From a bacterium (lineage in GTDB: Bacteria; Sysuimicrobiota; Sysuimicrobiia; Sysuimicrobiales; Segetimicrobiaceae), in NCBI GenBank assembly GCA_035945995.1, contig DASYZR010000163.1:1-53840 (forward strand): 53,840 nt of DNA. Direction: 5' to 3'. Positions 1 to 9,937 of this stretch are shown here, one piece after another (the first letter of the stretch is position 1; each line of letters begins with the position of its first letter). Below the pieces are notes generated by a model that ran no database searches, had not been told where the DNA came from, and saw nothing but the letters and a program-made list of their open reading frames with translations. Position numbers and translations under genes: made by a program.

Positions 1-754
1 GCACGACGCCGAGTCCCAGGCCCCCGGCGATCGCCCCGAAGAACGAGCCCATCCCGCCCAACGCGAATGCGACGAAGCCGAGGTTGGTGAAGAAGCGCCC
101 GGTATCGAACGCGATCGAGGTGACCGGTCCCAGCACCTCGCCGCCGATCGCGCCGATTGCCGCACCGACGGCGAACGCGAAGAGCGTCATCCCCGAGACC
201 TGGACGCCCATGAGGCTGGCCGCGACCGGGTTCTCCGCGCAGGCGCGGAGCGCCTTGCCGAAGGCCGTCCGCGCCAGCACGTACCACAGCGCCGCGACGA
301 TGAGGCCGGAGATGCCGACGATCCAGAATGCCTGCGTCGGGACACCGACGCCGCCCACGATCACCGGCCGCTCGCCCGAAAACGCCGGAATCGAGTAAGG
401 CTGGCTGCCCCAGATGAGCAGGCTCGCGCCCTCGAAGAACGTGAGGAGCCCGACGAGCAGAATGAGCATGCCGCCCACCGCGAGGTGCGCCCGCGCTGGC
501 CGGACGACGAACCGTTCCATCGCGGCGCCGATCAGCGCGGCCGCGCCCGCCGCGCCGGCGGCCGCGGCCGCCGGCGGCCAATGGCCCTGCGTCTCGAGCG
601 AGTACATCCCCAGCGCCCCGAGCACGACGAACGCACCCTGTGCAAGGTTCGGGACGCCCATGACGTTGTAGACGAGCGTAAACCCGAGGGCAACCAGGGC
701 GAAGACGCTGCCCGCCAGCAGGCCGCCGACGGCGATCTCAGCGGCTTCCCGCAC
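1..754 (-). CDS. LivH-like branched-chain amino acid ABC transporter permease (partial)
   Basis: Reading the minus strand from a GTG at 754 gives 251 codons without a stop, running off the window edge. The protein opens with a hydrophobic stretch followed by the LivH-type sequence GFTLVYNVMGVPNLAQGAF, then alternating membrane segments and a loop ENPVAASLMGVQV typical of the permease family that imports branched-chain amino acids or related amides. AAGGA lies 10 nt before the GTG, which supports this start. It is the inner-membrane channel of an HAAT-family importer; its partner genes must lie to the left of the window. The upstream intergenic region has been hit by the 913-8844 insertion, which may have separated this gene from its original promoter or neighbours. 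Family assignment is firm; the substrate is not. Confidence 0.85.
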   Translation of the reverse strand, partial: MREAAEIAVGGLLAGSVFALVALGFTLVYNVMGVPNLAQGAFVVLGALGMYSLETQGHWPPAAAAAGAAGAAALIGAAMERFVVRPARAHLAVGGMLILLVGLLTFFEGASLLIWGSQPYSIPAFSGERPVIVGGVGVPTQAFWIVGISGLIVAALWYVLARTAFGKALRACAENPVAASLMGVQVSGMTLFAFAVGAAIGAIGGEVLGPVTSIAFDTGRFFTNLGFVAFALGGMGSFFGAIAGGLGLGVV

Positions 755-907: not shown

Positions 908-912
908 CCCCG
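908..912. repeat. Left target site duplication of the 7.9-kb element
   Basis: CCCCG sits directly before the left terminal TG of the element and is repeated directly after the right terminal CA at 8845-8849. A 5-bp duplication is within the range made by IS21-family transposition. Confidence 0.75.
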
Positions 913-939
913 TGTAGGTTTCTCACGATAGTTTTCAGT
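913..939. repeat. Left terminal inverted repeat (L1)
   Basis: Starts TGTAG; the core TTCTCACGATAGTTTTCAGT at 920-939 is identical in inverted orientation to 8819-8838. It marks the outer boundary of the mobile element. Confidence 0.8.
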
Positions 940-973
940 GGCACCCCGTCAAAATCAAGGAAATCGAGCGGGT

Positions 974-1017
974 CACCTGAGATACTTTTCAGTGGTATTC
1001 TCAAGATAGTTTTCAGT
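974..1017. repeat. Two internal copies of the left-end repeat (L2, L3)
   Basis: The copy at 981-993 (GATACTTTTCAGT) matches 12 of 13 positions of the core's 3' part. The copy at 998-1017 (TTCTCAAGATAGTTTTCAGT) matches the 20-bp terminal core at 19 of 20. Both have the same orientation as the outer left repeat. Arrays like this are usual transposase-binding sites at IS21-type left ends. Confidence 0.7.
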
Positions 1018-1069
1018 TTCTACGTCGAACGACCGTGCGGTAGTGTGGCCGCGCCCAAAGGTGTGTCCC

Positions 1070-2662
1070 ATGACGACGCCTTGGATCGAGGTCCTCCGCA
1101 ACGCCACCGTGGGGGCATTCCAGGGGCCAAACGGGGATTACCCATCCGTACTCGACGTGCTCGACGGGCTGACCGCCGTGCAGGCATCTTGGAAACAGTC
1201 CCTGTACCGGCATTCGATTTGGCAGATCGTCGATCATCTCGCCAAGAGCAAGGAATGGGAGCGCCGAGTCATCCTCGGCGAGCGGCCACCGGCACCGACC
1301 TGGGAGGATCCCGGCGGCGACGATGCCGCATGGCTGGCGGCCATTGTGCGGCTTCGAGGTGCGCAGGGACAGCTATTGGAAACGATCGACCGCTTGGCCG
1401 AGGACGAGTTGTGGAAACGCCCGCCGACGCAGACAGGATGGCCGGTCGTTAACCTGGTCCTCAACAAGGCAGCCCATGACGCGTACCACGCCGGCCAAAT
1501 CCGCCACCTGCGGGCACTTCAAGAGAATCTGAACGATGAGATGGTGACTCGTCTAGTCAGGCAGCGCGCAATGCCAACAGGACCTATTGAGGCGACGGTT
1601 CGCGCCGTACGGAGAGAGCACTTTCTTCCCGGGGTAGCGTTGGAGGCCGTTTACAGCGGCGAGGCGGTAATCACGCGGCGAGGGCCCGAGGGGATCCCGA
1701 TCAGCTCATCCAGCATGCCCGAGATCATGGCGCTAATGTTGCAGCAACTCGACGTGCAGCCCGGGCACCGCGTCCTCGAGGTTGGCGCCGGAACCGGATA
1801 TAATGCGGCGCTCTTGGGCGTCCTGGCAGGGCCGGCCGGCGACGTGACGACTGTCGATATCGACGCGGCAATCGTTCAAGAGGCACGACAGCGCCTTGAT
1901 GCTTCAGGCCACCCGGTTGTTCGCACTGTGACCGCCGACGGCTGGCTTGGCGTGCCGGAATACGCACCCTTCGACCGGATCGAGGTGACGGTCGGCGTGT
2001 CGGACCTGTCGCCCGCATGGGTGACCCAGCTCAAAGACGGTGGCCGGCTCGTCGTCCCGCTGTGGCTCGCGCGGGGCCAGGAAGTGGCGGTCGCCTTTCA
2101 TAACCGCGCGGGTTGCCTGCGGAGTGTCGCTGTCATACTCTGTGGCTTCATGCGCCTGCGCGGTCCGCACGCCGGACCCGAAACCTTCGTCACGGTGCGC
2201 GATTGGTTCATTCCGTTGGAGGAACCTGATCCAGTGCGGTTGGCGGCGCTCGAGACTGTTCTCGCATGCGAGCCGCGCGTCGAGCCGGCTCCGCCTGGAC
2301 TGCAGGGCTGGTGGGCCCGCCTGCTGCTCGAGGAGCCCCGCGCCATTACTTTAGGCCGCAAAGGTGAGTGGCGAAAGAACGGGTGCGGCATTTTGGAGGT
2401 TGGCGAACGGCCAGGTCTCGCGTTCGTCACCGCGAGGACGTGGGATCATCAACTCTACACGTTCGGAAGCGATGCCGCCCGCGCCATGCTTCTTGAGAGG
2501 TTGGTGGGCATCCGACCCCTCGACGTTCGTGATCTAACCATCGAGGCGATTGCTGCGACGGCGCCGCAACCGCAGGATGGCATGGTGCTTCGCCGGCGGA
2601 ATTTCCAGTTCGTACTCCGAGAGCGCGGAGCCACCGACAGGCAGGGGTGCTTTACGATCTAG
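1070..2662 (+). CDS. DinB-like domain fused to protein-L-isoaspartate methyltransferase-like domain
   Basis: A protein of about 530 residues with two recognisable parts. Residues about 5-155 resemble a DinB/YfiT four-helix bundle, with candidate metal ligands H56 (VDHLA) and H136/H140 (HDAYHAGQ). From about residue 165 it resembles PCMT/FxLD-type methyltransferases: a PISSSSMPEIMALML stretch takes the place of the Pcm substrate motif, followed by the SAM-binding motif VLEVGAGTGYN at about 235-245. About 200 further residues follow the Rossmann core. The ATG at 1070 has AAGG nine bases upstream and is preferred over an in-frame GTG at 1043. It is the first cargo gene of the mobile element and faces two decayed acetyltransferases; its stop overlaps the end of one of them. 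A role in thiol or methyl transfer, repair of damaged protein or peptide modification is possible; none is shown. Confidence 0.75.
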   Translation: MTTPWIEVLRNATVGAFQGPNGDYPSVLDVLDGLTAVQASWKQSLYRHSIWQIVDHLAKSKEWERRVILGERPPAPTWEDPGGDDAAWLAAIVRLRGAQGQLLETIDRLAEDELWKRPPTQTGWPVVNLVLNKAAHDAYHAGQIRHLRALQENLNDEMVTRLVRQRAMPTGPIEATVRAVRREHFLPGVALEAVYSGEAVITRRGPEGIPISSSSMPEIMALMLQQLDVQPGHRVLEVGAGTGYNAALLGVLAGPAGDVTTVDIDAAIVQEARQRLDASGHPVVRTVTADGWLGVPEYAPFDRIEVTVGVSDLSPAWVTQLKDGGRLVVPLWLARGQEVAVAFHNRAGCLRSVAVILCGFMRLRGPHAGPETFVTVRDWFIPLEEPDPVRLAALETVLACEPRVEPAPPGLQGWWARLLLEEPRAITLGRKGEWRKNGCGILEVGERPGLAFVTARTWDHQLYTFGSDAARAMLLERLVGIRPLDVRDLTIEAIAATAPQPQDGMVLRRRNFQFVLRERGATDRQGCFTI

Positions 2663-2916
2663 GGCCTAGTGATGGGGGACCCGTCGCCCGCGAGCGTCAG
2701 CACCCAGGCCATGCGCTCTCCGGACCGGCGCATCTCCTGGCACTGGCGAAGAAACTCGTTTACCTCGTCAACCGCGTAGTCCGGGCCCCACGTCAAGTAT
2801 CGGACGACGTCGGCGTCCTGCGCCCACCGCTCGAAGATCGCCGGCCCATCGTCCATCGTCGGTGCGCGCAGCACAAGCCGCGCGGTCTGGATGCGGTCGG
2901 GGAACGACAAGGTCAT
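2659..2916 (-). pseudogene. Truncated GNAT (RimJ/RimL-type) N-acetyltransferase
   Basis: An 85-codon frame starting at ATG 2916 (AAGGG eight bases upstream) reads as the N-terminal half of a GNAT acetyltransferase: IQTARLVLRAPTMDD, then an acidic helix region. GNAT proteins of this type are usually about 170-180 residues with the acetyl-CoA loop in the second half. That half is missing here, and the frame closes at the stop of the convergent DinB-methyltransferase gene. The truncation therefore looks like a recombination junction. ATGA overlap couples it to the preceding acetyltransferase remnant. Probably inactive. Confidence 0.6.
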
Positions 2917-3339
2917 CCGGCGGCCCTTTGGGACGAACTCCAGTCGGCCCGGTTGAGCGCGTACCATACAACATCCCGCGGGACGTGCAGCCGGCGGTCG
3001 ATCACCGCCACGGTACCTTGGTAGGTCAAGCCGCACTTCTCCATCACGCGGCGTGACGCGGTGTGGTAGGGCACCGTGATTGCGATGAGCCGCTCAAGCC
3101 CAAGACCCTCGAACGCTTGCCGGATGACGGCGCGCAGCCCAGGCGCCAAACCCGCGTTCGTCCCAGAGCCGAAGAATCCGCGCGTGAGCCTGTTTCGCCT
3201 CCTCGTAGGACAGCGGTCCATACTCGTGCGTGATGTAACGCATGACGTCGGGATCAGCAAGCAGGCGCGCATACTCGTCCAGATCGGTGGGCCGCCAAGG
3301 GTACAGCACAAGACGAGCGGTCTCGATCTCACGAGTCAT
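2913..3339 (-). pseudogene. GNAT N-acetyltransferase with internal deletion and frameshift
   Basis: The 5' part from ATG 3339 reads METARLVLYPW-like (IETARLVLYPWRPTDLDEY) up to RGFGAWA, typical of a RimJ-type acetyltransferase N-terminus. The C-terminal half continues in a different frame with LRAVIRQAFEGLGLERLIAI and ASRRVMEKCGLTYQGTV, the conserved C-terminal signature. The middle strands carrying the acetyl-CoA pyrophosphate loop (about 50 residues) are absent and the two parts are out of frame, so this is a decayed gene. Its start overlaps the stop of the DUF120 gene (ATGA), so it was once a translationally coupled operon member. Confidence 0.65.
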
Positions 3340-3734
3340 CGAAAATCATCCCAGTCGACTACTGAGAACGAGATTTTGTCGCCATCGCTCAGGCCGAGAA
3401 GTGGCCTAAGCTGAATCCCCGCGACCAACTCGACTTGGTCCGCGGGGTATCCGGGTTCGTCAGCCTGAAACGCCAACCCTCGGTAGCGGTCGGCGATGAG
3501 GGCGCGGATGAGGAAATAGCCAGCTTGACCAATCTGCTGATGCCACTGCGGGCTGATTTCCGCTGCGGCGAGGTAGCGCCAGTTTGGGCCCCGCGTAGCC
3601 GGCTCGGAGAGGCGCACGTTAAGCGTACCGGGGACGATCGGACAGCCGGCTGCTGCCTGCAGTCGTTCGATGATCGCGGAGTCGGTCATGCGTGGCACTG
3701 CGAGTCCGCGGCCTGGCTTCACAACCCCGGTCAT
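3336..3734 (-). CDS. DUF120 / CTP-dependent riboflavin kinase-like protein
   Basis: A small protein (132 residues from ATG 3734; an in-frame GTG at 3746 is an alternative). It shows the glycine-rich start GVVKPGRGLA, the PGTLNVRL motif near the N-terminal third, and a C-terminal VELVAGIQLRPLLGLSDGDK segment. All three are hallmarks of the cradle-loop-barrel DUF120 family, whose archaeal members make FMN from riboflavin using CTP. In archaea the domain is often fused to an HTH; here it stands alone. It heads a minus-strand operon whose two downstream acetyltransferases are decayed. Function as a riboflavin kinase is inferred from family only. Confidence 0.65.
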   Translation of the reverse strand: MTGVVKPGRGLAVPRMTDSAIIERLQAAAGCPIVPGTLNVRLSEPATRGPNWRYLAAAEISPQWHQQIGQAGYFLIRALIADRYRGLAFQADEPGYPADQVELVAGIQLRPLLGLSDGDKISFSVVDWDDFR

Positions 3735-4227
3735 GACTGCACCCACACCACGATTCTACCGGTAAAGGCGAACCGGAGCAGTCCGATTGCTGACTAAGGT
3801 ATTGTGCCAGCTCGCCGACCTACGTCCTCGGGGAAGGGAATACGATCAAGCGTACGCTGAAAAGTACCTTAATCGAAGGTGATCGCCGATTCCGAAGGGA
3901 ACGCGGTCACCATTCCGGGATGATCCCGGTCAGCCATCGGAGTGAAGCGACACAGATTTTGTGATTGTGGAAGAAGTGATCGGATTCGTCAAGAGAAAAT
4001 CCGGAGCGCAGCGGAGGAAGAATGCCGCAGCCGAGGAAAGGGGCGCGGGGAAAGGACGGCACGTCCTGTCCCCGCCTCAGCGCACAGAGACCCCGGAGCG
4101 CGAAGAGCGCTCCGGCACCAAAGATAATCCGGATTGCCGACGATGCACCCGAGGCGACGCTGCGCCACCTTCCCCAAAATGCATTGCACCGGCGGCGCGG
4201 GAGAATAGTAGCGAGGGAGGGATTCCC
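3735..4227. other. Gene-free stretch inside the element with one internal end repeat
   Basis: Between the DUF120 gene and the oxidoreductase I find no convincing gene. The one clear feature is a 27-bp repeat at 3844-3870 that recurs at 6429-6455. Several frames stay open here but lack homology signals and a plausible ribosome binding site. The stretch is probably junk left by successive insertions plus the promoter region of the oxidoreductase. Confidence 0.5.
3844..3870. repeat. Internal copy of the element end repeat (right-end orientation)
   Basis: GATCAAGCGTACGCTGAAAA followed by GTACCTT; identical at 26 of 27 positions to 6429-6455. The CTGAAAA core has the same orientation as the outer right end at 8819. 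It lies between two cargo blocks. Confidence 0.7.
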
Positions 4228-5160
4228 GTGAAAGCAGTCAGGACTCACGGCCGGGGCGGGCCGGAGCAGTTGTTTTTCGAGGATGCACCGGTGCCGGTGG
4301 TTCGGCCTGGGGATGTGCTGGTACGGGTACGCGCGACGGGCATCACGCCCGCAGAACTGACTTGGGATGAAACCTATCAGAGCGCCGATGGCACGCCGCG
4401 GATTCCAGGCATTCCGGGACACGAGCCATCAGGCGTGGTAGAGGAGACGGCACCCGATATCACGGATTTTCGGGCGGGCGACGAGATATATGGCCTGGCT
4501 GATTTTCCACGGGACGGGGCGGCCGCCGAGTTCGCGGCAGTGCGTGCGGCGAACCTCGCGTTAAAGCCACGCAGCATCCCACACGTGCAGGCGGCGGCAC
4601 TGCCGCTTTCGGCGCTGACCGCCTGGCAGGCGCTCTTCGAACACGCGCATCTCGCTGTGGGGCAAGCCGTGCTGATCCACGGAGGCGCCGGCGGGGTGGG
4701 AACGTTGGCAGTGCAACTGGCACGGTGGCGAGGGGCCCACGTACTAGCCACGGCATCTGCGCGCGACACGGCGCTCGTGCGCAGTCTGGGGGCTGACGAC
4801 GTGATCGACTACCACGCTACGCGTTTCGAAGACATTCTGCGAGACATCGATGTAGTGCTGGACACGATCGGCGGCGAGACGCGGGAGCGTTCCTGGCGCG
4901 TGCTGCGGAAGGGCGGTGTGCTAGTGACAACGGTCTCCGCGATTCCGGCTGATGTCGCCGAGCAGCACAGCGTGCGCGGTGTGTTTTTCATTGTTAGCGG
5001 AAATCGAAAGCAGCTTGATCAAATCACCGGACTCGTGGACACCGGGAAGCTGAAGCCGGTATTATCCGAGGTGCTTCCGCTTGCCCGCGCACGCGAAGCG
5101 TTCGAGCACGGTGCTGCAGGCCACACTCCAGGCAAAATCGTGCTTCAGGTGGCTGCATAG
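4228..5160 (+). CDS. Zinc-independent MDR oxidoreductase (quinone reductase-like)
   Basis: 310 residues from GTG 4228, preceded by a GGGAGGG-type ribosome binding site. The N-terminal GroES-like domain (residues about 1-125) begins MKAVRTHGRGGPEQLFFEDA and carries the PGHEPSGVV motif. The Rossmann domain shows LIHGGAGGVGTLAVQLA, the NADPH-binding loop of quinone oxidoreductase-like MDR proteins. No structural zinc cysteine cluster is visible, as in the QOR/zeta-crystallin branch. It probably reduces quinones or enones with NADPH in the cytosol. It stands alone in the transposon cargo, with a gene-poor stretch on either side. Confidence 0.85.
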   Translation: MKAVRTHGRGGPEQLFFEDAPVPVVRPGDVLVRVRATGITPAELTWDETYQSADGTPRIPGIPGHEPSGVVEETAPDITDFRAGDEIYGLADFPRDGAAAEFAAVRAANLALKPRSIPHVQAAALPLSALTAWQALFEHAHLAVGQAVLIHGGAGGVGTLAVQLARWRGAHVLATASARDTALVRSLGADDVIDYHATRFEDILRDIDVVLDTIGGETRERSWRVLRKGGVLVTTVSAIPADVAEQHSVRGVFFIVSGNRKQLDQITGLVDTGKLKPVLSEVLPLARAREAFEHGAAGHTPGKIVLQVAA

Positions 5161-5438
5161 CCGCGTATTAACCGTCGTGAGACGGTATCATCCTGACCAC
5201 GAAAGGATAAGTATGCATAGATATCTTTGGTTTCGTCTTCGTAGCTCTTGACGATCGAAATTCGGATCAGCGGCATAAAGCATACGGGAGTCTGTAAAAA
5301 TCCCTCGCGAAGTCGTTTCACTGTATTATGATGGCAATCTTTTACAGTCAAGAAGAAAAGGAATCTTTTCTAAAGAAGTGGCAAAATAACATAGCTGATT
5401 AACGTGTAACCATTATCCTCCAGCCGAAAATACGATTT
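5161..5438. other. AT-rich gene-free block
   Basis: A stretch clearly richer in A+T than anything else in the window, with runs such as TCTGTAAAAATCC and TTTTCTAAAGAAG. A 68-codon minus-strand frame (5145-5351) would start at TTG without a ribosome binding site and has no recognisable motif, so I do not call it. The composition suggests DNA from a different source than the flanking cargo. Confidence 0.5.
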
Positions 5439-6047
5439 ATGACGGCGGCGTCGGCGGGCCTCATCATGTTCGGCTACCTGATCGGGGCGGTGCCGACGGG
5501 GTTGGTGCTCGTGCGCCTCTTGTCCGGGGCCGACATACGCGAGCACGGCAGCGGCAACATCGGCGCCGCCAACGTGCTTCGGGTGGCGGGCCCCGCGGTC
5601 GCGGCCGTCGTGCTTGCCGCAGACGTCCTCAAGGGCTACCTACCCGTGTGGCTGGCGATCCGGTACGGCGGGGGGCCCTGGACGACCGTGCTGTGCGGGC
5701 TGGCCACGATCGCTGGCCACAACTGGTCGGTGCTCCTGCGCTTCGGCGGCGGCAAAGGGATCGCGACGTCGTTCGGGGTGCTGCTGGGGCTATCGCTTCC
5801 GGCCGCGCTGGTGGCCGCTGCGGTCTATGTCCTCGTCGTCGCCCTGACCCGCTACTCCTCGCTAGGCTCGCTGCTCGCAGCCGTCCCCGTGACGTCCTCC
5901 CTGTGGCGCCTCCGCGCGCCGGATGCCTACGTCGTTTTCGGCGTCGTGGCCGTCGCGTTCGCGATCTACCGGCACCGCGGCAACATCGAGCGCCTCCGCG
6001 CCGGCACGGAGCGCCGGATCACCGACCGCGAGTCCCCCACGCGCTAA
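5439..6047 (+). CDS. plsY: Glycerol-3-phosphate acyltransferase PlsY
   Basis: 202 residues, within the usual PlsY length. All three family motifs are present: HGSGNIGAANVLR near residue 36, AGHNWSVLLRFGGGKGIAT in the middle, and HRGNIERLRAGTERR near the C-terminus, with hydrophobic segments between them. PlsY transfers acyl from acyl phosphate to glycerol-3-phosphate in the inner membrane, the first step of phospholipid synthesis. No clear ribosome binding site precedes ATG 5439; an in-frame ATG nine codons downstream is an alternative start. A phospholipid gene as transposon cargo is odd: it may be an extra copy rather than the essential one. It sits beside the AT-rich block but is itself GC-rich. 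Confidence 0.9.
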   Translation: MTAASAGLIMFGYLIGAVPTGLVLVRLLSGADIREHGSGNIGAANVLRVAGPAVAAVVLAADVLKGYLPVWLAIRYGGGPWTTVLCGLATIAGHNWSVLLRFGGGKGIATSFGVLLGLSLPAALVAAAVYVLVVALTRYSSLGSLLAAVPVTSSLWRLRAPDAYVVFGVVAVAFAIYRHRGNIERLRAGTERRITDRESPTR

Positions 6048-6120
6048 CCCAAGTTCCGCAGTTGAGGCACCACTGAAAGAATTTTAGGCCATTGAATCGG
6101 AAATCCGGACTTAATAGTTC

Positions 6121-6336
6121 CTAGGCGCAGATCTCCGACGGGAACCGGCTGCAGATGTCCACCCACCGGAGACGCAGCAACTCGATGGTGGAGTAGTGCC
6201 TCCGTGGCTGTAACAACTCGACGTGGTGCCTCTGCGGCAGAATTTGATTTGTCCCCGTGAAGTTTGCGATGGCCGCGATGGCGATGAGGAGCAATCCTGC
6301 GGCAGCGAGCCTGATCAAAACCTCGCGGGTTCTCAT
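6121..6336 (-). CDS. Small hypothetical protein with N-terminal membrane segment
   Basis: 71 codons starting at ATG 6336, with GGAGG placed eight bases upstream, a strong ribosome binding site. Residues about 6-26 form one hydrophobic segment (VLIRLAAAGLLLIAIAAIA) followed by a polar, arginine-rich tail. This could be a single-pass membrane peptide or a signal-anchored one. No family recognised. It lies between plsY and the internal end repeats of the element. Confidence 0.4.
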   Translation of the reverse strand: MRTREVLIRLAAAGLLLIAIAAIANFTGTNQILPQRHHVELLQPRRHYSTIELLRLRWVDICSRFPSEICA

Positions 6337-6428
6337 GGGGATCGCCTCCGTCGATGGTCGCCGGCCTAAGCTTCGCTATATCGTCCGCCATCGTGCCCCA
6401 GTGCTCTCATGGCGGGGGCGCGGGCACC

Positions 6429-6494
6429 GATCAAACGTACGCTGAAAAGTACCTTGACGCTGTTCGCTGAACGTTCGCTGAAAACTATCTTGAT
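6429..6494. repeat. Two tandem internal copies of the element end repeat (right-end orientation)
   Basis: The first (6429-6455) is 26/27 identical to 3844-3870. The second (6472-6494, CGTTCGCTGAAAACTATCTTGA core) shares 16 bp, CTGAAAACTATCTTGA, in inverted orientation with the left-end copy at 1001-1016. Two spaced copies are what an IS21-type right end would look like, so this may be the fossil right end of an older or related element. Confidence 0.65.
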
Positions 6495-6531
6495 GTCATA
6501 AGAGCGTTGGCTTCCGATCCAGGGTAGGGTA

Positions 6532-6554
6532 GGCTGGCTCTCAAAGGGCCAGCC
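6532..6554 (+). ncRNA. Hairpin upstream of IS110 transposase, possible part of a bridge RNA
   Basis: GGCTGGC (6532-6538) pairs perfectly with GCCAGCC (6548-6554) around a 9-nt loop, within the non-coding left end just before the transposase. IS110-group elements encode their bridge RNA in this place. One hairpin is not proof, and the loop has not been matched to target or donor. Confidence 0.3.
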
Positions 6555-6579
6555 GAGACGATCCGGGGGAGGCTGAGGC

Positions 6580-7641
6580 ATGGTGACGGTTGGGGTAGAC
6601 CTCCACAAGCGCGTGTCCCAGATTGCAGTGCTCACGCCGGCCGGCGAGATCGTACAGCATCGCCTGGACAATGATGCGGAGAAGATCGCGCAGTTTTTCG
6701 GTCAGATCCCGGCACCGGCGTCCGTGGCCATCGAGGCCTCAGGCACCTGGTGGTGGCTCGCGGACCTACTCGAGCAACTCGGTCATCACCCAGTGCTCTC
6801 CAACCCGAAGCAAACGAAAGCGATCGCCGCGGCCAAGCTGAAGAATGACCGCGTCGACGCGGAGCTCCTGGCGCTATTGTTGCGGGCTGATCTCCTCCCG
6901 CGAGTGTGGATCCCTCCGGCGGCGTTGCGCGAGGCGCGCGAGCTCCTCCGACATCGCATTGGCCTAGTGTGGCTCCGTACCCGGACAAAGAATGCATTGC
7001 AGAGCCTCGTGGCGCGCCGAAACCTTTCCCCACGGTCGGCGATGAGCTGGATGAGTGCCTCGGGGCAACGCGAGCTGGCGGCGTTGCCTTTAGCGCCGCA
7101 GCCGGGGACCATCAGGCAGCAATATTTCGCGCTGCTGGATTTCCTCAATCAACAGATCCGTGTGGTCGATAAGACGTTGATGGAACACTGGCAAGCCGAC
7201 CCGCAGGTGCGTCGACTCACGACGATCCCGGGGATCGGCTTCTTCACCGCCACGCTATTGGTGCTGGAGCTCGGCGATATCCATCGCTTTCCCTCCGCGA
7301 AACACGTGGCCAGCTATGCGGGCCTAACGCCCCGGGTGCGCGCGAGCGGCGAGCGGCTTCGTACCGGCCAGATCTCAAAGGAGGGCAACCGCTTGATCCG
7401 GTGGGCCCTGGTCATGGCAGCGACACAGGCCGCCCGCCGGCCGGGTCCATTGCGTGTCTGGTTTCGCGCGATGCAACGACGCCGCGGTACAAAGATCGCC
7501 AGAGTCGCGCTGGCGCGGCGGCTGAGCGAGATCGTCTACCAAGTGTGGAAGACGGAGACGGATTACTTCTCCACGATGAATCGGACGGCTTGTGCAGGGG
7601 CGGGCCCGTTAGTTTCTCTGGTCTCCGGACCGCTATCTTGA
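6580..7641 (+). CDS. IS110-family transposase (DEDD)
   Basis: 353 residues, ATG preceded by GGGGGAGG. The N-terminal RuvC-like domain shows GVDLHK (D7), IEASG (E52) and NDRVDAELLA (D90, D93), the DEDD set. The C-terminal Transposase_20 region carries IPGIGFFTATLLV, SYAGLTPRVRASGERL and GQISKEGNRLIRWAL, including the serine-containing segments used for strand exchange in this family. The reading frame is intact and full length, so the element may still be active. The stop codon TGA lies inside the right copy of the 10-bp flanking repeat. Members of this family are guided by an RNA made from their own non-coding end. Confidence 0.92.
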   Translation: MVTVGVDLHKRVSQIAVLTPAGEIVQHRLDNDAEKIAQFFGQIPAPASVAIEASGTWWWLADLLEQLGHHPVLSNPKQTKAIAAAKLKNDRVDAELLALLLRADLLPRVWIPPAALREARELLRHRIGLVWLRTRTKNALQSLVARRNLSPRSAMSWMSASGQRELAALPLAPQPGTIRQQYFALLDFLNQQIRVVDKTLMEHWQADPQVRRLTTIPGIGFFTATLLVLELGDIHRFPSAKHVASYAGLTPRVRASGERLRTGQISKEGNRLIRWALVMAATQAARRPGPLRVWFRAMQRRRGTKIARVALARRLSEIVYQVWKTETDYFSTMNRTACAGAGPLVSLVSGPLS

Positions 7642-7818
7642 TTGGGCAACCCCTCGCCTTCGACAGAGGGCGATAGTCGAACCGTCATCATGGGCCGCAC
7701 GTGCCCGAAGAGATGAGTGGTGCACAAGCAAGTGTGGGCCAACGCTTGCGACACCGCCCGCGTGAAGCGCAGCAGCAGAACCACGTCCGCGAGCAACGGG
7801 ATGGCGGGAGGTAGGTCG

Positions 7819-8739
7819 ATGTTCATAAGTCAGGCAAGCAAAGGCGGACGGCTAATCGCGGATCAGATCGCACCACGCTACTGCGAAAATCCCCACGTTG
7901 CCGCCGCGGTCGTAGGTGGATCGGTAGCTAAGGGATGGGCAGATGAGTTCTCAGACCTCGAGCTTACGATCTTTTGGTTCGAAGCTCCGTCGGATGCGGA
8001 GCGTAAACAAGCGATTGGGCAGCTTGATTGTGATATCTGGAAGTTCGACTCGTATGATCAGGGACAGCGCGGGGAAGCGGTGGAGCACCTAGGCCTGCGT
8101 TCCATCGAGATCGACGGGACCCGCCACAATGGCACAGTGATGGTGAGTGTGCAGCACCTGACTGTCCGGGAGGTTGAGGCCCATCTCGAGGACGTCACCG
8201 ATCACTGGGACACCACGGTAGAGAAACAGACTCTCGTATATGCTATCCAGCACTGGCTTCCGTTGCGAGGAGCCCGCTTGCTGGATGCTTGGCAGGCAAG
8301 GGCAGCGCAATATCCGGACGGGCTAGCTCGAAAAATGGTTGAGGAGAACCTCTGGATGGGCCCGTGGTTCTATCCCGAGGCGTACGCGTCGCGGAATGAT
8401 CGACTGGTACTCTACCGGCATTTCTGCATGACAACGCAGCGTCTGCTCTGCGTGCTGCTCGGACTGAATCGAATGTACCACCCCTCGCATGAGTACAAGT
8501 GGTTGGAGCACGTTGCCGGAAAGATAAAGATCGCGCCGCAGGATCTGGCCGGGCGACTGAAGGGGGTATTTGGTGGCGATCTGCTGGCCGGCGGCCACGA
8601 ACTCATCTCGCTGATTCACGAAACGCTGACACTGGTGGAGCGAGAGATGCCGGAGATTGATACGAGACGGGAACGCGGTCGATGGCAAGGTTGGCACCCG
8701 TACACGCTGTTGAATCGAGTAGGAGCGACAGCAAGCTGA
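7819..8739 (+). CDS. Nucleotidyltransferase-fold protein
   Basis: 306 residues from ATG 7819, chosen because GGGAGGT lies eight bases upstream; further in-frame ATG/GTG codons upstream lack such a site. Near the N-terminus is AAAVVGGSVAKGWADEFSDLEL, the GGS-x(n)-D-x-E/D pattern of the polymerase-beta-like NTase fold (aminoglycoside nucleotidyltransferase and related proteins). The rest is helical with many aromatic residues and may be the substrate lid domain. Substrate unknown: antibiotics, a toxin-antitoxin role or RNA are all possible for this fold. It is the last gene before the right end of the mobile element, in the place where resistance-type cargo is often found. Confidence 0.7.
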   Translation: MFISQASKGGRLIADQIAPRYCENPHVAAAVVGGSVAKGWADEFSDLELTIFWFEAPSDAERKQAIGQLDCDIWKFDSYDQGQRGEAVEHLGLRSIEIDGTRHNGTVMVSVQHLTVREVEAHLEDVTDHWDTTVEKQTLVYAIQHWLPLRGARLLDAWQARAAQYPDGLARKMVEENLWMGPWFYPEAYASRNDRLVLYRHFCMTTQRLLCVLLGLNRMYHPSHEYKWLEHVAGKIKIAPQDLAGRLKGVFGGDLLAGGHELISLIHETLTLVEREMPEIDTRRERGRWQGWHPYTLLNRVGATAS

Positions 8740-8818
8740 ATTGGTCTATGATTTGAAGCTGGCTGCTGGATGCCCGTCGCATTCGGCTTGACAGGGCCAA
8801 CGCCCTTAGAGATGAGAA

Positions 8819-8844
8819 ACTGAAAACTATCGTGAGAATCTACA
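8819..8844. repeat. Right terminal inverted repeat
   Basis: ACTGAAAACTATCGTGAGAA (8819-8838) is the exact inverse of 920-939; the end CTACA mirrors the left TGTAG. Only one copy lies at this end. Confidence 0.8.
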
Positions 8845-8849
8845 CCCCG
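8845..8849. repeat. Right target site duplication of the 7.9-kb element
   Basis: CCCCG immediately after the terminal CA, identical to 908-912. Confidence 0.75.
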
Positions 8850-8929: not shown

Positions 8930-9937
8930 GTGCGTGTAGCCCTCAGCAGGCGACAGGTCCTGACGATGGCCGGAGGCGCCGCGGCCGCGGGGTGGCTCGG
9001 GGCCGCCCGGGCGCCGGTCCGGGCGCAGGGCATGACGCCGCTCCAGGTCGGCATCGCGTTCCAGAACCTCGACGCGGTCTGCGCGTGGATCGCGCTGGAC
9101 CGGGGGTACTTTCAGCGGTACGGGCTCGACGTGACGATCGTCACCATCCAAGGGGGCGCCCGGACGATGGCGGCGATGGCGGGCGCCGACGTCCCCCTCG
9201 CGTTCACGGCCGGGTCCGACGTCATCACCGCCCGGTCCCGCGGGGTACCGCTGTCGTTGGTCGCGGGCCTCATCGACAAGTTCCCGTACGACTTCGTGGT
9301 GGCGAAGAACATCTCCAGCGGGGCACAGCTCAAGGGGAGCAAGGGCGCGATCAGCGGCTTCGGTGGCTCGTCCCATTTTGCCGCGCTCTACGCGCTCGGC
9401 AAGCTCGGGGTCAATCCCACCGACGTGACGCTGCTGCAGGTCGGCAACGAACCGGCCCGGCTCGCGGCGCTCCAGTCCGGGCAGATCCAGTTCACCGTGC
9501 TCACGGCGGGGCTCGATCTCGAGGCGTTCGACATGGGATTCAAGCCGATGCTCAAGCTGTATACGCTGGACCAGCCCTACCAGCACACCGGGATCGCCGT
9601 CAATACGAACTGGGCCAAGGCGCACGCGTCGACGCTGGACGGGTTCATGAAGGCCATCGTGACGGGCACCGTGTACGTCCAGGACCCCCTTCACGTGGCC
9701 GCCGCGCAGGCGCTCATTCACAAGCACCTGCCGATCAAGGACGACAACCTGCGGCGCGGATTGGCGCTCTACCGCGAGCAGTTCTATCAGACCTACCCGC
9801 TGGTCACGGTCCCGGGGATGGAGTTCATCCTGCGGCAGAAGAAAATGACCGACCCGGTCACGGAGTTCTACGACAACAGCTACATCCAGGCGCTCCAGAG
9901 CGCGAACTTCGCGGCGACGGCGAAGAAGTCGCTCTGA
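8930..9937 (+). CDS. NMT1/SsuA-type ABC transporter substrate-binding protein (Tat-exported)
   Basis: 335 residues from GTG 8930 with a strong TTAGGAGGT ribosome binding site. The N-terminus has a twin-arginine signal (SRRQVLTMAGG, then an alanine-rich core ending ARAPVRAQG), so the protein is likely exported folded by Tat. The mature part begins LQVGIAFQNLDAVCAWIALD and resembles periplasmic receptors of the NitT/TauT family for sulfonates, nitrates, pyrimidine precursors or aromatic acids. It is the first gene of an eight-gene operon running to 17598, overlapping the next gene by 1 nt. The insertion at 913-8844 ends about 80 bases upstream, so the native promoter may have been changed. No ATPase or permease is adjacent on this strand; the pair at 21866-23498 could serve. 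Confidence 0.85.
   Translation: MRVALSRRQVLTMAGGAAAAGWLGAARAPVRAQGMTPLQVGIAFQNLDAVCAWIALDRGYFQRYGLDVTIVTIQGGARTMAAMAGADVPLAFTAGSDVITARSRGVPLSLVAGLIDKFPYDFVVAKNISSGAQLKGSKGAISGFGGSSHFAALYALGKLGVNPTDVTLLQVGNEPARLAALQSGQIQFTVLTAGLDLEAFDMGFKPMLKLYTLDQPYQHTGIAVNTNWAKAHASTLDGFMKAIVTGTVYVQDPLHVAAAQALIHKHLPIKDDNLRRGLALYREQFYQTYPLVTVPGMEFILRQKKMTDPVTEFYDNSYIQALQSANFAATAKKSL

Follow-up and report, generated by a model that had tools for sequence, protein, structure and literature searches.

The window analyzed here, a stretch of 53,840 nucleotides from a bacterium of the Segetimicrobiaceae (contig DASYZR010000163.1), harbors a unit with borders at 913-8844. The unit lies between a LivH-type permease gene (2-754, minus strand), named as such in a preliminary description of the locus as well as from its own sequence, and an NMT1-type receptor gene (8930-9937). 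The features of the unit and its borders are as follows.

908-912, no strand: left copy of the 5-bp target duplication, CCCCG (letters read and script)
913-1031, plus: left end, with TGTAG terminus, core repeats at 920-939, 981-995 and 998-1017, and spacer (repeats; homologous ends on contig C171 and in genome G027)
1073-2662, plus: DinB-domain and PCMT-type methyltransferase (ORF opens at 1043)
2659-3332, minus: GNAT acetyltransferase region over two frames (Pfam match only in the 2659-3036 frame)
3336-3746, minus: DUF120 (CTP-dependent riboflavin-kinase-like) protein (ORF list and domain search)
3843-3870, plus: scar holding an inner piece of another right end (27 of 28 positions as in 6428-6455)
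4222-5160, plus: zinc-type dehydrogenase/quinone oxidoreductase (ORF opens at 3961)
5439-6047, plus: PlsY-type glycerol-3-phosphate acyltransferase (ORF list and domain search)
6424-6491, plus: inner portion of the right end belonging to the unit itself, severed by IS110 (80% match on contig C135)
6492-8814, plus: IS110 element with passenger gene, inside the right end, with GATG at both junctions (comparison with genome G033)
6580-7641, plus: IS110-family transposase gene (NF033542, 260 bits)
7816-8739, plus: DUF4037 nucleotidyltransferase-like gene within the IS110 borders (ORF opens at 7717)
8811-8844, plus: outer part of the right end, with CTACA terminus (letters read and script)
8845-8849, no strand: right copy of the 5-bp target duplication, CCCCG (letters read and script)

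The preliminary description had reported TGTAG/CTACA ends, a 20-bp inverted core, CCCCG directly flanking both ends and two extra core copies in the left end. Reading of the letters and a script confirmed the termini (913-917 and 8840-8844), the core and the duplication, and the extra copies were located at 981-995 and 998-1017. The inverted core is identical at 20 of 20 positions (920-939 versus 8819-8838), and the number of perfect 20-bp inverted pairs expected by composition in 7.9 kb is approximately 9e-5. The unit hence presents the TG/CA termini of the IS21 family, a target duplication within the 4-8 bp range of that family and, as in its members, at least two direct repeats per end, with three copies on the left and two to three on the right once the IS110 element is removed. 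The GC content of the cargo (0.61-0.64) departs from that of the flanks (0.71-0.72). In an empty-site search through NMT1 homologs of six related genomes, no LivH match and no empty site were found within the stretches fetched, and for lack of synteny this outcome is uninformative.

Inspection of the unit revealed that its right end is split. Right-end-type repeats, absent from the preliminary description, are present at 3843-3872 and 6428-6493, and the segment that separates the latter from the outer terminus (6492-8814) encodes a DEDD/Transposase_20 recombinase of the IS110 family, the only transposase within the unit. A relative of this element in a related genome (G033:C213; 69% protein identity) starts with TGATGTCATAAGAG, an exact match at the left border, at the point where the right-end repeat of the window stops (~6491). 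The right border of the relative, CTCTTAGAGATG, has its counterpart at 8785-8814 (83% over 30 nt), abutting the terminal repeat, so that the two elements have their borders in common at unrelated sites. The relative, which interrupts an apparent acyl-CoA dehydrogenase gene and presents one TGA stop in its matched frame (L081), spans ~1.5 kb, and nothing in it matches the DUF4037 gene, which indicates that the IS110 borders in the window enclose a passenger gene. A candidate far border at 7633-7641, CTATCTTGA, was discarded, as the comparison with G033 places it inside the IS110 element.

In silico excision of the IS110 element yields CGCTGAAAACTATCTT-GATG-AGAAACTGAAAACTATCGTGAGAATCTACA, a continuous repeat-bearing end, and the uninterrupted right-end sequence predicted for a unit lacking IS110 is CTATCTTGATGAGAAACTGAAAACTATCGTGAGAATCTACA. 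Past the junction, the joined end resembles a related end found on another contig of the same genome (C135, described below), with a distal alignment score reached by 5 of 500 shuffles. Alternatively, the repeats at 6428-6493 might not be the unit's own right end, and the IS110 element might stop near 7720, leaving the DUF4037 gene and the right border as ordinary cargo. The comparison does involve a single close IS110 relative, with nucleotide similarity lost between ~7720 and 8785, but the 30-nt match falls exactly at the right border of that relative and abuts the terminal repeat, the TAAGAG/CTCTTA sequences near both borders and the common GATG fit an IS110 boundary, more distant IS110 relatives end in CATAGATG or similar, and removal of the segment restores a repeat spacing of ~23 bp, near that of the C135 end. 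We consider this alternative quite improbable, and infer that insertion of the IS110 element and its DUF4037 gene into the right end postdates the formation of the unit. The original unit would then have measured ~5.6 kb, with 913-6491 joined to 8811-8844, and the 7.9 kb of cargo initially attributed to the unit must be revised: 2.3 kb of it corresponds to a secondary IS110 insertion within the right end, and the cargo also contains a right-end scar.

Among the cargo genes, the GNAT gene appears to be broken, probably through a split between frames, and a scan of the unit with anti-phage defense models returned a single match, to the methyltransferase domain. The scar at 3843-3870, not mentioned in the preliminary description, is devoid of the outer right-end repeats. 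It shows that at least one rearrangement took place in the past. On the simplest reading, an earlier unit carrying a first cargo block would have lost its outer right end on fusion to a second block, and the farther right end would then have served as the border of the fused unit.

Sequences related to both ends were identified outside the unit. The left end and its spacer recur elsewhere in the same genome (G000:C171:5003-5098; 78% identity), where the ORF just inside the end was taken for an IS5-type transposase; a second end was searched for and not found. This degraded left end and the putative IS5-type ORF have a gene for a Fur-like regulator on one side and one for a cupin-like protein on the other (L004 4018-5100). 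A further copy of the left end and spacer is present in a genome of the same family (G027:C105:358-461; 74% identity) and is followed by non-transposase genes. Just outside that copy are different short repeats, TTGGCCATTT / AAATGGCCAAC, which may be the end of another IS (L023 140-340). The right-end region at 6424-6500, in turn, recurs at G000:C135:19181-19249 (80% over 70 bp). This copy lies some 150 bp away from a tRNA-Thr gene and runs on into sequence of the left-end spacer type. Beyond the C135 end (L078 7948-8300) come genes for an MFS transporter and AraC-type regulators, along with others of accessory appearance. The stretch may be a further cargo unit; no far end was found.

The related ends thus total three, two in this genome and one in a genome of the same family; all are degraded, and no IS21 transposase lies beside them in the stretches read. 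The wider search covered 43 genomes belonging to the phylum, a sample of 386 genomes drawn mostly from across the domain, plasmids and phages, as well as exact patterns in two contig collections, and yielded no further convincing copy of the ends. Exact-pattern matches to the core plus TACA in genome and viral contigs had no partner end and were judged to be due to chance. The same judgment was reached for weak matches in the 386-genome sample (G267, G161, G131, G135, G361, G072 and G106), which lacked partner ends and, in those with an ORF list, fall in ordinary genes. A viral match was also discarded, as it lies inside a ribonucleotide-reductase-like gene.

The preliminary description had noted no IS21 transposase in the unit, and the ORFs inside it include no IstA/IstB-like gene. 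Nor was an IS21 transposase (IstA) found in the whole assembly, which is 98.8% complete; its sole IstB-domain match is weak and lies in a 480-aa frame. IS elements are often missing from MAGs, and the absence of a transposase from the assembly therefore constitutes weak evidence. No autonomous element with the ends of the unit was found in any collection searched, and the ends match no known IS21 element among the IS21 loci of the phylum, plasmids, phages and viral contigs; the 12 IS21 loci recovered from viral contigs with IstA profiles all have other ends (0/12).

The architecture of the ends provides a further indication of the enzyme involved. In the left end of the unit, two repeats match at 11 of 12 positions with a spacing of 24 bp, a result reached by 1 of 200 shuffles. 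A spacing of 24 bp is the top repeat spacing in 11 of the 16 IS21 left ends examined, whatever their repeat letters. The spacing is common across these left ends (L026, L032, L033, L106-L111, L113) even though repeat letters differ widely between subgroups, and might constitute a sequence-independent signature of IS21 ends. The 24-bp spacing of the left end, as in most of the IS21 left ends examined, thus favors an IS21-type enzyme. The repeat letters themselves are unlike those of every IS21 end examined. A likeness between TGAAAACT, common to the unit and IS21 ends, and IS21 repeats such as TGAAAACTGACCC was not retained as evidence, since the sequence is oriented oppositely with respect to the end.

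Multi-repeat ends are also found in other families of rve-domain transposases (ISNCY/ISBj12-like, IS481-like and Tn7/Tn5053-like TniA), and the unit could be a passenger or remnant of one of these. A 5-bp duplication is likewise usual for Tn7 and Tn5053 elements, a 36-bp spacing is present as well in the right end of the unit, near the 35 bp seen in ISBj12-type ends (n = 5; in one of them 42 bp ties with 35 bp), and the only rve-domain gene in the genome encodes a transposase of the ISNCY/ISBj12 kind. The ISBj12-type ends examined, however, consist of GTTGCCTCA-type repeats without the core of the unit, the unit itself does not present such repeats 35 bp apart, the genome's own ISNCY/ISBj12-like copy is flanked by GAGGCA/TGCCTC repeats unlike those of the unit, and the left-end spacing is 24 bp. 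We regard an origin in another rve family as rather unlikely. The transposase in question (G000:C78:9175-10422; L092 1123-2370) is 415 aa long, has the GAGGCA/TGCCTC repeats on both sides and is 42-46% identical to ISNCY/ISBj12-family transposases of rhizobial plasmids.

These results suggest that the unit is probably a non-autonomous passenger transposon, akin to a mobile insertion cassette, mobilized in trans by an enzyme whose gene lies outside the unit, IS21 (IstA/IstB) being the likeliest type, and subsequently invaded by IS110. The passenger-transposon reading of the preliminary description holds in that the locus shows a single clean duplication around a cargo-bearing transposition unit that lacks a matching transposase, and its label of IS21-like ends holds for their architecture (TG..CA termini, direct repeats, the 24-bp pair and the 5-bp duplication), whereas no istA/istB element with such ends was found in the collections searched. 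Since no autonomous partner was found, membership in the IS21 family is unproven, and we do not claim it; our claim is that the unit works like an IS21-type passenger unit. In the proposed mechanism, the long repeat-bearing ends would be recognized in trans by a putative IS21-type transposase from elsewhere, which would link the two TG/CA termini to cuts staggered by 5 bp, giving rise to the CCCCG duplication. The IS110 element would have inserted in the right-end repeat by its own RNA-guided recombination, either before or after the unit reached its present site.

The unit might instead be a decayed autonomous transposon whose own transposase genes were replaced or deleted while the cargo blocks were joined. 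The right-end scar within the cargo and the degraded state of all the related ends are in line with such decay, but the ORFs contain no remnant of an IS21-type transposase, the duplication is clean and the outer termini are intact, and we regard this origin as somewhat unlikely. More broadly, a passenger transposon of this kind could be one of a class, specific to the lineage, of cargo units that lack a transposase, have long IS21-type ends and were assembled in steps that left right-end scars in the cargo, and in which passenger-bearing IS110 elements land in the terminal repeats and add genes without destroying the outer terminus; we put this generalization forward as a doubtful conjecture. 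The present unit would point to gene shuttling in little-studied bacteria by elements that transposase-based annotation would miss, and it includes an apparent example of an RNA-guided IS110 with a passenger gene inside the end of another transposon. If an autonomous partner were found, the long ends would provide a defined substrate for how IS21-type transposases choose distant partners.

Comparison with known systems places the unit near several of them. In the IS21 family, each end is built of several direct repeats (PMC10122671). The unit resembles IS21 elements encoding IstA/IstB, such as IS5376, in its TG/CA termini, multi-repeat ends, 24-bp spacing and short target duplication, but it lacks istA/istB, has other repeat letters and carries cargo in place of transposition genes. 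Mobile insertion cassettes (MICs) consist of two IS-type ends around unrelated genes, with no transposase for those ends and presumed movement in trans (PMC3281130). Like them, the unit encodes no transposase for its own ends. Known MICs have short simple inverted repeats, whereas the ends of the unit are long and multi-repeat, its cargo contains an end scar and IS110 has inserted into it, and its parent IS was not found in the collections searched. Transporter ISs (tIS) carry a passenger gene between their ends (PMC9330008), a description that the IS110 and DUF4037 segment fits, whereas the outer unit is devoid of the transposase that defines a tIS. Finally, IS4321 and IS5075, IS110/IS1111 elements residing in Tn21-type inverted repeats, provide a precedent, cited in PMC11187229, for an IS110-family element inside the terminal repeats of another transposon. 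Here, by contrast, a single case is at hand, a passenger gene is carried and the target occupied by the G033 relative is a different one, so that the location in an end repeat need not reflect targeting by this IS110. Both transposase-less passenger units (MICs) and the insertion of IS110-type elements into transposon ends are hence already known, and what is new at this locus is their combination, together with the long IS21-type ends and the passenger-bearing IS110.
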